Assembly: GCF_010731635.1 (NCBI RefSeq)
Contig: NZ_AP022583.1
Span: 4,278,001-4,342,000, forward strand
Reading direction: 5' to 3'
DNA: 64,000 nt
Source: Mycobacterium noviomagense
GTDB lineage: Bacteria > Actinomycetota > Actinomycetes > Mycobacteriales > Mycobacteriaceae
This document shows, piece by piece, positions 9,990 through 47,814 of this stretch. Position numbers and translations under genes: made by a program. The first letter of the stretch is position 1, and each line of letters opens with the position of its first letter. The notes under the pieces are model-generated. The model searched no databases. It had not been told where the DNA came from and worked only from the letters and a program-made list of their open reading frames with translations.

Positions 9990-10406
9990 TCAGCCCTCGG
10001 GGCCTGCGCTAGCAGGTGGGGTTTTGCGGTGGCCGGCCTCTAATTCGCCCAGCGCCCGCCGCAGCGCGTCGGCCTCGTCGGCGCCGACGCGTTCCACGAA
10101 GTGCACCAGCGCCGCCTGCCGGCTGCCCGAGTCCGCCGCCTGGTCGAGCGCGTCGACCATCAGTCCGGCGACCAGTTCGTCGCGGCTGTGCACCGGTGCG
10201 TAGCGGTGAGCGCGGTCGTCGCGGATTTGGGAGACCAAGTTCTTCTTGGCCAACCGTTGCAGCACTGTCATCACGGTGGTGTAGGCGAGGTCGCGCTGTG
10301 CCGATAACGCTTCGTGCACTTGGCGAACGGTTTGGGGCTCCGGCTCGGACCACAGGTGGTCCATCACCGCACGTTCGAGATCTCCCAGGCGCGTCAGCTT
10401 GGCCAT
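9990..10406 (-). CDS. blaI: BlaI/MecI-family transcriptional repressor
   Basis: A 138-aa winged-helix repressor, the same length as Mtb BlaI. It begins MAKLTRLGDLERAVMDHLWS; the start at 10406 sits 8 bases after AGGGAG, better than an upstream ATG at 10433. The DNA-binding helix region LAYTTVMTVLQRLAKKNLVS is the classic BlaI/MecI recognition segment, followed by a C-terminal dimerisation half. In Mtb BlaI represses blaC, its own operon and ATP synthase genes. It sits upstream of the BlaR-like protease, and an imperfect TAC..GTA inverted repeat lies ~45 bp upstream (10450-10466). Confidence 0.95.
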   Translation of the reverse strand: MAKLTRLGDLERAVMDHLWSEPEPQTVRQVHEALSAQRDLAYTTVMTVLQRLAKKNLVSQIRDDRAHRYAPVHSRDELVAGLMVDALDQAADSGSRQAALVHFVERVGADEADALRRALGELEAGHRKTPPASAGPEG

Positions 10407-10449
10407 TCGTTTCATCTCCCTAAAGCGACCCAATCAGCGTACTCCCGCT

Positions 10450-10466
10450 TACTACCGTCCGTCGTA
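10450..10466. promoter_or_regulatory. Candidate BlaI operator upstream of blaI
   Basis: A 17-bp imperfect inverted repeat, TACTAC-CGTCC-GTCGTA, lies 44-60 bp upstream of the blaI start. BlaI/MecI operators are TAC...GTA type inverted repeats, and BlaI is autoregulated in Mtb. The assignment is an inference from position and symmetry. Confidence 0.5.
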
Positions 10467-10582
10467 CCGAAATGGCCGCACGGTGACAACCGGTCGATCA
10501 ACTGAGCAGGTTGCGGGCCCTAGCGCTCGGTGATCGGTCTGCACCTGTGACAGCGCTCACACCGCTACCTCTGCGTAGCATA

Positions 10583-10601
10583 TTAGGTTAGCCTAACCTG
10601 A
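10583..10601. promoter_or_regulatory. IdeR box (iron-dependent repressor operator)
   Basis: The sequence TTAGGTTAGCCTAACCTGA matches the IdeR/DtxR consensus TTAGGTTAGGCTAACCTAA at 17 of 19 positions. It lies 20-38 bp upstream of the GTG start at 10622, the position expected for repression in iron-replete cells. Confidence 0.9.
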
Positions 10602-10621
10602 TCCGATGGGCGGGAGGTGTG

Positions 10622-11389
10622 GTGTCTGTTCTCAGCGACGACCCGCTGATCGCGGCTATGGCTATCGAGCGACCGCTGCCGCTGCACCAATCGAGTCGAC
10701 GGCTGCGCGAGCTATATCCAGCCAGCCCGCGCGTCTACGGCGTCGCAGTACTGGCCGACGTCTCGCGGCGCCGCTGGTGGCCACTGGCGTCGGCCCTGAC
10801 AACCAACCGCCTTCAAGTGATGTTCGACGATGCCGCCGCCGGAATGGACCGCCGGGCGGCGGCCCGGGACGTGGCGGCCACCCTGGTACATACGGTGATC
10901 GGACGGGTGGTGGCCCTGGTGGTCCTCGAGGCGCGGGCCTGGGATCCGGGCTTGGACAACCTCTGGGTGCACGTCGACGCCGAGGGTGCTATCGACTGGC
11001 TCGCGGTGGTCGACCCGATGCTGCGGGGTTTGCCCGAAGATCCCGAACTGCATGAGCCGGTGGTGCGGCTGCCGAGCGAAGCCGCGTTGGCAACCTGGGT
11101 CGCGCACCGCTGCCACCGCAGCCTTGCGCCGTTGTTCGCCGAATTGCGCGCGGTCAGCGGCGGGGCGATGCCGGTGGCGTCCATGTGGCAGCTGGTCGGA
11201 TCGGCGGTCGTCACGGCCGCGACGCAGGTGCCGCAACTGGCCGGTACCTGCGAGGTGGCCGGCATGCGGCGCGGTCAAGCCGTGCTGGAGGCGCTGGTCG
11301 ACTTCGGTCTGCCGGTGCGGGGTCCGCTGTTCCGGCACCGGCATACCAGCCGAAACCTTGCGAAATTAGGGCAGCCTTGCCTATGCTGA
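10622..11389 (+). CDS. Iron-regulated conserved protein, function not recognised
   Basis: A 255-aa soluble protein starting with GTG (VSVLSDDPLIAAMAIERPLP) four bases after GGGAGG; another in-frame GTG lies three bases upstream. A strong IdeR box directly upstream indicates derepression in low iron. Length and position suggest a ferric-siderophore reductase of the FhuF type, but the FhuF C-terminal 2Fe-2S cysteine motif (CC...CxxC) is absent; the C-terminus instead reads NLAKLGQPCLC. No signal peptide or membrane helix is seen. In Mtb there is no such gene between blaI and Rv1847. The last ~30 bases overlap the promoter of the putative MrsI RNA. Confidence 0.75.
   Translation: MSVLSDDPLIAAMAIERPLPLHQSSRRLRELYPASPRVYGVAVLADVSRRRWWPLASALTTNRLQVMFDDAAAGMDRRAAARDVAATLVHTVIGRVVALVVLEARAWDPGLDNLWVHVDAEGAIDWLAVVDPMLRGLPEDPELHEPVVRLPSEAALATWVAHRCHRSLAPLFAELRAVSGGAMPVASMWQLVGSAVVTAATQVPQLAGTCEVAGMRRGQAVLEALVDFGLPVRGPLFRHRHTSRNLAKLGQPCLC
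11366..11384. promoter_or_regulatory. Second IdeR-like box overlapping an sRNA promoter
   Basis: TTAGGGCAGCCTTGCCTAT fits the degenerate IdeR consensus TWAGGTWAGSCTWACCTWA at about 15 of 19 positions, with symmetric TAGG/CCTA ends. It overlaps a candidate promoter: -35 TTGCGA at 11358-11363, 18-bp spacer, -10 TATGCT at 11382-11387. Confidence 0.65.
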
Positions 11390-11393
11390 TTGC

Positions 11394-11490
11394 GTCGAGC
11401 GATGCAGTGACCGTGGCGGTGTCCTGAGGGCTGCAGTGACCCCCGGTCAACTCGATCGGCGAGCCCCGTGCCCGGTGCACGGGGCTCGCC
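11394..11490 (+). ncRNA. mrsI: Putative iron-sparing small RNA MrsI homologue
   Basis: A ~97-nt non-coding interval follows a promoter covered by an IdeR-like box and ends in a 12-bp GC-rich hairpin. It contains a small hairpin TGACC-CCC-GGTCA (11437-11449) with an unpaired C-rich loop and a 10-base direct repeat TGCAGTGACC (11403-11412 and 11432-11441). In Mtb the IdeR-regulated sRNA MrsI (ncRv11846), about 100 nt and repressing iron-using genes such as bfrA, lies at this spot next to Rv1846c (blaI). The identity is inferred from locus, iron box and architecture. The 5' end is estimated from the -10 position. A 14-codon ATG frame at 11383 would start within the promoter and is not believed to be a gene. 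Confidence 0.65.
11459..11489 (+). terminator. Strong hairpin terminator of the putative sRNA
   Basis: GCGAGCCCCGTG, a 7-base loop, then CACGGGGCTCGC: a perfect 12-bp stem. No long U-tract follows, which is common for mycobacterial terminators. Confidence 0.8.
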
Positions 11491-11547
11491 CGTGTTCAGG
11501 GCATCCGGGCACCGGTATCGGCGATCTCATGGTGTAGACACAAGGGC

Positions 11548-11973
11548 GTGCAACCGCTGCCGGACCATGTGCTGCCGCCGGATTTCACCGCGCCGTTTGA
11601 CACCGAAATCGGGCTCGTGTTCACCGAATTGAGCCCCGACGGCGCGCGAGCGCAGCTTGAAATTCAGCCGAAGCTTCTGCAACCGATGGGCATCGTGCAC
11701 GGCGGGGTGTACTGCTCGATGATCGAAAGCATGGCTAGTGTCTCCGCCTGGACCTGGCTGAACGCGCACGGCGGCGGCTCCGTCGTGGGCGTCAACAACA
11801 ACACCGATTTCCTGCGCGCGATCAGCGCGGGGACGGTGTACGGCACCACGACGCCGATACACCGCGGCAGACGTCAGCAACTATGGCTGGTCACCATCAC
11901 CGACGGCGACGAGCGAATCGTCGCCCGCGGGCACGTACGACTGCAGAACCTGGAAGCTCAACCGGACAGCTAG
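11548..11973 (+). CDS. PaaI-type hotdog thioesterase (Rv1847-like)
   Basis: A 141-aa single hotdog-fold protein, probably hydrolysing acyl-CoA or aryl-CoA thioesters. The central helix segment MGIVHGGVYCSMIESMAS is the PaaI-family signature (HGG followed by the catalytic acid region), and VGVNNNTDFLRAISAGTVYG is the typical following strand. The GTG start gives MQPLPDHVLPPDFTAPFDTE. It is orthologous by position to Mtb Rv1847. Its stop TAG shares the tetranucleotide CTAG with the stop of the convergent ndh gene. In Mtb the six-gene urease operon lies between these two genes; here it is absent. Confidence 0.85.
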   Translation: MQPLPDHVLPPDFTAPFDTEIGLVFTELSPDGARAQLEIQPKLLQPMGIVHGGVYCSMIESMASVSAWTWLNAHGGGSVVGVNNNTDFLRAISAGTVYGTTTPIHRGRRQQLWLVTITDGDERIVARGHVRLQNLEAQPDS

Positions 11974-13367
11974 CTGGCCACTTTCGTTTCACCCCGGTGC
12001 GCCTCAGCGGCCAGCACCGCCAACTGTTCGAGGCGGGTCCGGGCGAACGCCTGCTGCTCGGTGATCGTCAGCTGACCGCGCCGAGTGGAAAGGAACGTCA
12101 CGGTCCACGACAGCAGCGTGGTGATTTTCGACTTGAAGCCGATCAGGTACGCCAGGTGCAGGACCAGCCAGATCAACCAGGCGATGAAGCCGCCGAACTC
12201 CAGCGGCCCGATTTTCGCCACCGCGGAAAACCGTGACACGGCGGCCATCGACCCCTTGTCGAAGTACTGGAACGGCTCGCGCGCCGTCGGATCGGCCCCG
12301 GCCAGTTCGGCTTTGATCGTGTTGGCCGCGTACTTGCCGCCCTGGATAGCGCCTTGCGCGACGCCGGGCACGCCGTCCACCGCAGCCATGTCACCGACGA
12401 CGAACACGTTCGGATGTCCGGGGATCGTCAGGTCCGGCAGCACCTTCACACGGCCTGCACGGTCGAGTTCGACGCCGGACTGCTCGGCCAGATCGCGACC
12501 CAGCGGGCTGGCCGAGACCCCGGCCGACCACACCTTGCACGACGATTCGATGCGCCGGATCCGGCCGTCGGAGTCTTTGACGGTTATGCCGTTACGGTCG
12601 ACGTCGGTGACCATCGCGCCGAGCTGAATTTCCACGCCCATCTTCTCCAGCCGTGCGGCGGCTTTCTTGCCCAGCTTTTCGCCCATGGGAGGCAGGACCG
12701 CCGGAGCGGCGTCGAGCAGGATGACCCGGGCAGTGGTCGGGTCGATGTGTCGGAACGCGCCTTTCAGGGTGTATTCGGCCAATTCGGCGATCTGCCCGGC
12801 CATTTCCACTCCGGTGGGTCCGGCGCCGATCACGGTGAACGTCAGCAGCTTCTTGCGTCGCTCCGGGTCGCTGGACCGTTCCGCCGCCTCGAACGCGCTC
12901 ATGATCCGGCCACGCAGCTCCAGCGCATCGTCGATCGACTTCATGCCGGGCGCGAACTCGGCGAAGTGGTCGTTGCCGAAGTACGACTGCCCGGCCCCGG
13001 CGGCAACGATCAGGCTGTCATAGTGCGTTTTGTAGCTGTGGCCGAGCAGCTCCGAGACGACGTACTTACCTGCCAGGTCGATGCGCGTGACATCACCCAG
13101 CAGGACTTGCGCATTGCGCTGCCGGCGCAGCACCACCCGCGTCGGCGGCGCGATCTCGCCTTCGGAGATGATCCCGGTCGCAACCTGGTACAGCAGCGGC
13201 TGGAACAAGTGATGCGTCGTGCGGGCGATCAGCTTGATGTCGACTTGGGTTCCTTTTGGAGCCCTCTTGAGCTTCTTGGCCGCGTTGAGTCCACCGAATC
13301 CGGATCCGATGATGACAACCTGGTGGCGACGACCGGGCGCAGCAGTGGCTTCGGGTTGGGCACTCAT
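11970..13367 (-). CDS. ndh: Type II NADH dehydrogenase
   Basis: A 465-aa non-proton-pumping NADH:menaquinone oxidoreductase of the inner membrane face. The FAD-binding loop GSGFGGLNAAK lies near the N-terminus, the NADH-binding loop GAGPTGVEMAGQ near residue 180, and a C-terminal amphipathic/membrane segment FIAWLIWLVLHLAYLIGF anchors the protein. The start MSAQPEATAAPGRRHQVVII is preferred because it aligns with Mtb Ndh (463 aa); an upstream ATG adds a non-conserved leader. Orthologue of Rv1854c. Transcribed alone, convergent with the thioesterase. Confidence 0.97.
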   Translation of the reverse strand: MSAQPEATAAPGRRHQVVIIGSGFGGLNAAKKLKRAPKGTQVDIKLIARTTHHLFQPLLYQVATGIISEGEIAPPTRVVLRRQRNAQVLLGDVTRIDLAGKYVVSELLGHSYKTHYDSLIVAAGAGQSYFGNDHFAEFAPGMKSIDDALELRGRIMSAFEAAERSSDPERRKKLLTFTVIGAGPTGVEMAGQIAELAEYTLKGAFRHIDPTTARVILLDAAPAVLPPMGEKLGKKAAARLEKMGVEIQLGAMVTDVDRNGITVKDSDGRIRRIESSCKVWSAGVSASPLGRDLAEQSGVELDRAGRVKVLPDLTIPGHPNVFVVGDMAAVDGVPGVAQGAIQGGKYAANTIKAELAGADPTAREPFQYFDKGSMAAVSRFSAVAKIGPLEFGGFIAWLIWLVLHLAYLIGFKSKITTLLSWTVTFLSTRRGQLTITEQQAFARTRLEQLAVLAAEAHRGETKVAS

Positions 13368-47124: not shown

Positions 47125-47143
47125 TTAGTGGAGTCTAACCTAA
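47125..47143. promoter_or_regulatory. IdeR box 1 (bfd side)
   Basis: TTAGTGGAGTCTAACCTAA matches the IdeR consensus at 15 of 19 positions, with a perfect right half-site CTAACCTAA. It lies 61 bp upstream of the bfd start and 189 bp upstream of bfrA. Confidence 0.85.
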
Positions 47144-47148
47144 GTGGG

Positions 47149-47167
47149 TTAGTGCAGTCTAACCTAA
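47149..47167. promoter_or_regulatory. IdeR box 2 (bfrA side)
   Basis: TTAGTGCAGTCTAACCTAA, nearly identical to box 1 and repeated 24 bp away. Tandem boxes are known upstream of Mtb bfrA, where iron-loaded IdeR activates transcription from the distal position. Confidence 0.85.
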
Positions 47168-47331
47168 GTCACCCGCTGGCTTGTCCGGCTGCTCCGCGGG
47201 TCGACGTACGTCGAGCGTCGTCGCCGGATACATTGAACCCGGCACGGCGTAGTGGTGTTACAGCCCAGCACCACCGCGGCAAATGCCGTGCGCACTGTGA
47301 AACGTGAACGCCTTGGAATAAGGGAGCGATC

Positions 47332-47814
47332 ATGCAGGGTGATCCGGATGTCTTGCGCCTGCTCAACGAGCAGCTGACCAGTGAACTCACCGCTATCAAT
47401 CAGTATTTCCTGCACTCCAAGATGCAGGAGAACTGGGGTTTCACCGAATTGGCCTCACGCACCCGCGCGGAGTCCTTCGACGAAATGCGGCATGCCGAAC
47501 TGGTCACCGACCGCATCCTGTTGCTCGACGGATTGCCCAACTATCAGCGCATCGGCTCGCTGCGCGTCGGCCAGACGCTGCGCGAACAGTTCGAGAGCGA
47601 TCTCGCGCTCGAATACGACGTGATCAACCGGCTGAAACCGGCGATCATCCTGTGCCGGGAGAAGCAAGACAGCACCACCGCAAATATCTTCGAGAAAATC
47701 GTGGCCGACGAGGAAGACCACATCGAGTACCTCGAAACGCAGCTGGAGTTGATGGACAAGCTGGGCGAGCAACTCTATGCCGCGCAGTGTGTCTCTCGGC
47801 CGCCCACGACCTGA
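47332..47814 (+). CDS. bfrA: Bacterioferritin (haem-containing iron store)
   Basis: A 160-aa ferritin-fold subunit of the 24-mer iron-storage shell. All ferroxidase-centre ligands are present: Glu18, Glu51, His54, Glu94, Glu127 and His130. The haem ligand Met52 is present too (SFDEMRHAEL). Start ATG after AAGGGAG. Divergent from bfd, with two IdeR boxes between; in Mtb bfrA is induced by iron-loaded IdeR and silenced by the sRNA MrsI under low iron, and a likely MrsI lies at 11.4 kb here. Confidence 0.97.
   Translation: MQGDPDVLRLLNEQLTSELTAINQYFLHSKMQENWGFTELASRTRAESFDEMRHAELVTDRILLLDGLPNYQRIGSLRVGQTLREQFESDLALEYDVINRLKPAIILCREKQDSTTANIFEKIVADEEDHIEYLETQLELMDKLGEQLYAAQCVSRPPTT

Follow-up and report, generated by a model that had tools for sequence, protein, structure and literature searches.

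MrsI, a small RNA (sRNA) of Mycobacterium tuberculosis and Mycobacterium smegmatis, was reportedly described by Gerrick et al. in 2018. In the parts of the literature covered here, it is placed between blaI and rv1847, with ncRv11846 at H37Rv 2096766-2096867 (PMC8628891), is induced in low iron (PMC7029489), carries its seed of 6-8 nt in an apical loop of 7 nt, and in M. tuberculosis is a small, independent, trans-encoded transcript (PMC11188477); its published targets are bfrA, fprA and hypF (PMC8628891, PMC11188477). We analysed a window of 64,000 nucleotides from Mycobacterium noviomagense (contig NZ_AP022583.1, positions 4,278,001 to 4,342,000; all coordinates below are those of the window), and conclude that positions 11394-11491 of the forward strand very probably encode the orthologue of MrsI (ncRv11846). 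This reading, first proposed in an initial annotation of the sequence, is supported by genomic position, an IdeR box, transcript length, a terminator, a conserved fold, and the complementarity of a 7-nt loop to the bfrA leaders of many mycobacteria.

Like MrsI as described in the portions of those papers considered here, the locus lies beside a BlaI-type gene and a thioesterase gene, has an IdeR box at its promoter, a length of about 100 nt and a predicted terminator, and exposes a short seed in a 7-nt apical loop, with bfrA complementarity in many relatives. The position supports the identification because it matches the published place between blaI and rv1847, as judged by the PF03965 and PF03061 domains of the flanking proteins and by an orthology to Rv1847 that we assume. 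Unlike the described locus, a FhuF-like gene lies here between the BlaI-type gene and the RNA and overlaps the promoter of the latter, and the bfrA leader of this genome lacks the 9-nt site close to the ribosome site. The RNA resembles RyhB, PrrF, FsrA and IsrR as an iron-regulated sRNA that would spare iron by repressing the mRNAs of iron proteins, but its control would be exerted by IdeR rather than by Fur.

To what is known of MrsI from M. tuberculosis and M. smegmatis we add relatives with the same loop in about 20 other genera of the family, a structure whose seed hairpin shows compensatory changes, and a covariance model, which Rfam 15 lacks. In 30 Mycobacterium genomes one site pattern gave 28 matches, among which bfrA stands out as the recurrent gene. 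The identification of a known RNA, with its seed and the view of its neighbouring gene corrected, and with a range wider than in the parts of the literature surveyed, is sound.

Promoter and IdeR box

The promoter proposed in the initial annotation was confirmed by direct reading, with TTGCGA (-35, 11358-11363) and TATGCT (-10, 11382-11387) on the forward strand separated by an 18-nt spacer. The TTGC of the -35 element is seen by eye in most relatives, and the conservation of the -10 element was likewise judged by eye. The predicted 19-bp IdeR box, TTAGGGCAGCCTTGCCTAT (11366-11384, without assigned strand), overlies the spacer and the -10 element, as had been claimed, and is called both from a consensus scan and from comparison with relatives. 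We scanned both strands of the window for the IdeR consensus, allowing up to 3 mismatches, and obtained 8 rows, where 0.24 were expected and none of 100 shuffles gave 8. As each site is read on both strands, the rows amount to 4 places. The other places are at 10583-10601, before the FhuF-like gene, and two before bfrA (47125-47167). The latter two predicted boxes are separated by 5 nt.

We examined conservation in the named loci, which are the best 80 of at least 541 confirmed in a protein-anchored scan. The core motif CCTGAGGGCTGCAG is present with up to 2 mismatches in 60 of these 80, and an IdeR-like box agreeing at 12-14 of 15 specified positions was found in all 58 core-bearing loci with at least 75 nt of upstream sequence, most often 55-56 nt before the core, compared with 6-10 of 15 for control stretches from the same 58 loci. 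An IdeR box at the promoter, as in MrsI, is accordingly present here as a sequence match to the assumed consensus. A generic E. coli-type promoter and terminator scan reported nothing within 10400-12000, so that the promoter and terminator calls rest on conservation.

The FhuF-like open reading frame (ORF, 10619-11389) has a predicted IdeR box of its own, and no hairpin terminator was seen by reading between this ORF and 11458, so that read-through transcripts would end at the same hairpin as the RNA. The RNA might then mainly be a processed 3' untranslated region of the FhuF-like mRNA. We consider this unlikely, as the -35 element, the -10 element and the IdeR box are kept in loci where no FhuF-like gene was found, and read-through would at most be a second source of the RNA.

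Structure and covariation of the RNA

The predicted MrsI transcript of about 98 nt (11394-11491, forward strand) has a 5' end placed from the -10 element and a 3' end placed from the terminator hairpin, and is defined further by a covariance model, R1, and by covariation. R1 was built from alignment A1, which comprises 73 distinct sequences chosen by the core motif with up to 2 mismatches, and scores 11394-11491 at 111.6 bits, the window sequence being among its own training sequences. The fold has an energy of -56.5 kcal/mol (z = -2.88), and none of 200 shuffles was as stable; a structured RNA of about 100 nt with an intrinsic terminator, as in MrsI, is therefore predicted here, subject to the placing of its ends.

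We identified four elements in the structure, all on the forward strand. A long-range helix pairs UCGAG (11395-11399) with CUCGA (11451-11455), an outer stem pairs GACCG (11409-11413) with CGGUC (11444-11448), the seed hairpin GUCCUG-[AGGGCUG]-CAG-U-GAC occupies 11421-11440, and an intrinsic terminator hairpin extends over 11458-11490. The terminator was described in the initial annotation as a 12-bp hairpin; the hairpin itself is borne out by covariation, while direct reading gives it 14 bp (11458-11471 with 11477-11490) around a CCGGT loop, and it has no strong U-run. RNAalifold's own consensus paired the loop bases with a C-run and lacked the UCGAG and GACCG helices, and the named structure, with the bulged base of the seed hairpin left free (GUCCUG-AGGGCUG-CAG-N-GAC), was scored by counts instead.

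Within A1, 96.8% of the cells of this structure are paired; both-side changes occur in 42 cells, where shuffles give 8.2. The long-range helix is supported by covariation in A1, with 95.6% of cells paired and 2 of 5 pairs changed on both sides, and was left out of the scoring of A3, in which 36 diverse sequences were aligned with MAFFT. Of the cells scored in A3, 96.7% are paired, and 75 show both-side changes, compared with 15.1 in shuffles and no more than 11 in slid controls. The outer stem covaries in both alignments, and both-side changes are found in all 11 counted pairs of the terminator in A3. In the seed hairpin, the pair one below the loop-closing pair varies as UA, AU and CG across relatives, and the bulged base is variable (T in 46, C in 21 and A in 6 sequences of A1). 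The region had been taken to hold no coding frame; ORFs do in fact run across it, and the covariation is the pattern of an RNA.

The most likely seed is the apical loop AGGGCUG (11427-11433), which corresponds to the 7-nt loop with short seed of MrsI. This loop is found in all 73 sequences of A1, where its invariance is partly built in because A1 was filtered by the core motif, and in 35 of the 36 sequences of A3, the remaining one reading UGGGCUG. The initial annotation had placed the seed elsewhere, in a TGACC-CCC-GGTCA hairpin or a repeated TGCAGTGACC. We ruled out the former, since this pairing is the covarying outer stem. The repeat is indeed present in the window, but a seed role is ruled out, as its first copy occurs in none of the 58 named loci, being peculiar to this genome within the set compared.

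No family of Rfam 15 covers the RNA. A 27-bit match to F6 (RF01791) is confined to the terminator hairpin, below the gathering score of 46 bits and with the core unmatched, so that the RNA is not a member of that family. The silence of the generic scan and the private nature of the TGCAGTGACC repeat would suit a reading of the promoter-, box- and hairpin-like sequences as chance occurrences without an RNA gene; the conservation and the compensatory changes across the family contradict it, and leave it a negligible probability.

Distribution across the family

We searched Mycobacterium with a 116-base query by blastn and obtained matches in 338 of 396 genomes of the genus, some covering part of the query. 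Of 401 genomes drawn from the family, R1 matched 281 at E<=0.001, and these fall in 20 of the 31 genera. One-per-genus checks at E<=0.1 were positive for 20 of the 30 other genera; with Mycobacterium added the count is 21 of 31, and no covariance match was found in the remaining 10 sampled genera. The E-values of R1 are rough, and reverse-strand matches to the terminator reach 33 bits, so that for the two weakest genera (42.6 and 38.4 bits) the call depends on the core and the box. Both the core and an IdeR-like box with 12-14 of 15 positions were identified in 23 of 25 places fetched from outside Mycobacterium; of the exceptions, L166 lacks the core and L167 looks like chance. In a search of 377 genomes of the order, a second model, R2, matched 64, of which 63 belong to the same family. 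The one beyond the family (G924, E 2.6e-4) is taken as probable chance, as are four weak blastn rows from outside it.

Within 3.1 kb of sequence for each of the 23 core-bearing loci of other genera, we found a thioesterase near the RNA in 22, a FhuF-like gene in 13 and BlaI in 9. The thioesterase, which lies downstream in those 22 loci, and the gap of 57 nt here between the end of the hairpin and the listed thioesterase start codon, might suggest that the element is a cis-acting leader of the thioesterase gene, combining iron-controlled transcription with an attenuator hairpin, and not a free trans-acting RNA. Such a leader is very unlikely given the conserved terminator structure, the match of the loop to many bfrA leaders, the description of the M. 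tuberculosis RNA as an independent trans-encoded transcript in the part of the source covered (PMC11188477), and a copy, L165, that has an IdeR-like box and no thioesterase match in its 3.1 kb. This copy (L165:1501-1606) is a second MrsI-like RNA, with its own IdeR-like box, in genome G586 of another genus.

The core is missing from 20 of the 80 named loci. In 2 of the 20 genomes concerned, R2 locates the RNA at another place. In ten of these loci, nine from Mycolicibacter and one from Mycobacterium sp. UM_WGJ, inspection by eye shows no more than relics, such as CTGAGGGTCTGCTGCGACCC, and an R2 search of these ten Mycolicibacter-type genomes (L026, L028, L030, L031, L033, L035-L038, L047) identified no copy elsewhere.

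We found no account of an MrsI-like RNA outside mycobacteria in the literature surveyed, which did not extend to the conservation statement of the original MrsI paper; the portions covered of PMC8600241, PMC10986025 and PMC3388012 contain none, and that of PMC3388012 does not mention Rv1846 or Rv1847.

Complementarity to bfrA leaders and proposed mechanism

Under the proposed mechanism, iron-loaded IdeR would sit on the box over the -10 element and block transcription. When iron falls, IdeR would be released and an RNA of about 98 nt would be made, ending at the terminator hairpin. The exposed apical loop AGGGCUG of this RNA would pair with sites of the type CAGCC(C/U)UCA lying a short way before the ribosome site in mRNAs for iron proteins. 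Pairing would repress these mRNAs, above all that of bfrA, leaving iron to essential uses.

The bacterioferritin gene at 47332-47814 on the forward strand, which we take to be bfrA and which has orthologues in 24 of 30 genomes, is the expected target in the window. In 10 of 16 Mycobacterium bfrA leaders, CAGCCYTCA occurs 25-27 nt before the ATG and pairs with UGAGGGCUG; one further leader pairs over all nine positions with wobbles (p = 0.12), and five, including that of the window, do not. Among 7 further genomes, selected mainly for their closeness to that of the window, three have the same 9 nt beside the ribosome site. The two closest (bfrA 95% identical) have both this site and an upstream CAGCCC, the next three (91-93% identical) lack both, and the remaining two differ, the 9-nt site being present in one and only an upstream CAGCCC in the other. 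Three Mycobacterium genomes (L222-L224) contain a second bfrA-like gene without the 9-nt site.

The pattern of CAGCCYTCA followed by a ribosome site and a start codon gave 28 matches in 30 Mycobacterium genomes, 13 of them at bfrA, while a reversed control pattern gave 12 matches in all in the same genomes. Because the other 15 matches approximate the 12 of the control, bfrA is the recurrent gene for this predicted site pattern. The promoter, the IdeR box, a covarying fold, a nearly invariant loop, the synteny and, in many Mycobacterium genomes, the complementarity to bfrA are conserved.

The initial annotation had proposed testing the loop for base-pairing with the bfrA leader of the window. 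The best site there is a weaker match, CAGCCC at 47261-47266 on the forward strand, complementary to the GGGCUG of the loop and 71 nt before the ATG; the 9-nt site near the ribosome site is absent, the stretch there reading ACGCCTTGG. We dropped a bipartite, co-evolved pairing with this leader, as the duplex energies, in which accessibility is ignored, were like those of shuffled leaders; the RNAs of two relatives against their own bfrA leaders gave p = 0.74 and 0.25. Since the 9-nt site is lacking, repression of bfrA in this genome is less certain, and may be weaker, absent, or exerted via the CAGCCC at 47261-47266.

Several points weigh against our reading of the locus. The likeness to M. 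tuberculosis MrsI was judged by its published description, the RNA is predicted from sequence, and the choice of A1 by core motif (<=2 mismatches) inflates the invariance of the loop. The canonical site pattern has no match in the window's own genome, the match in the bfrA leader of the window is of 6 nt only (shuffle p = 0.073), and the duplex energy of the RNA with this leader is not significant (p = 0.15). The 9-nt site is also missing from 6 of the 16 and 4 of the 7 Mycobacterium bfrA leaders, and from all 8 bfrA leaders of other genera, two of which contain CAGCCC. No consistent site was found for the published target hypF, which we rejected as a conserved target, any CAGCCC between -150 and +60 of the HMM start occurring in 4 of 18 loci and at differing places.

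Since the bfrA site is found in Mycobacterium and in none of the 8 leaders of other genera, the ancestral target may have been other than bfrA. We favour, with moderate confidence, a history in which MrsI is the mycobacterial branch of an IdeR-controlled RNA about as old as the family (21 of 31 genera), with a nearly frozen 7-nt loop, an ancestral target that was not bfrA, a later recruitment of bfrA, a loss of the RNA in Mycolicibacter, and a window genome without the canonical bfrA site. This raises the question of what the same loop regulates where bfrA has no site.

Neighbouring genes

The RNA is flanked by a BlaI-type repressor gene (9990-10433, reverse strand; PF03965, E 1.6e-29) and by a hotdog thioesterase gene (11548-11973, forward strand; PF03061, TIGR00369), presumably the orthologue of Rv1847. 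The intervening ORF at 10619-11389 on the forward strand encodes 256 amino acids without a Pfam match, and is called a FhuF-like iron reductase gene from its named homologues. A search that scored 7998 candidates yielded 1415 homologues at E<=1e-3; among the 120 listed, several are named 'iron reductase', one of these also 'FhuF-like transporter' (from M. xenopi, 83% identical), and the rest are unnamed or hypothetical. The M. xenopi match puts the source of the window close to that species within Mycobacterium. Its predicted IdeR box (10583-10601, without assigned strand) has 1 mismatch to the assumed consensus.

An extra iron-regulated gene sharing the promoter of the RNA had been proposed at this place. 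The overlap stands: the FhuF-like protein ends in LAKLGQPCLC, ten residues whose codons lie in the mrsI promoter and IdeR box, and the stop codon ends 4 nt before the predicted start of the RNA. The same tail is found in several relatives; elsewhere the box lies in another frame, giving a different tail, or after the stop. The gene is probably not a local addition, being present at the same place in 13 of the 23 core-bearing loci of other genera and in 9 of the 80 named loci, which are mostly of Mycobacterium and some of which are contig ends. It therefore looks ancestral to the locus, and has probably often been lost.

Finally, the sequence TTACTACCGTCCGTCGTAC (10449-10467), which we take to resemble a BlaI operator, precedes the BlaI-type gene, and stretches of the same kind, TACTAC...GTCGTA, stand before the thioesterase in Mycolicibacter loci.
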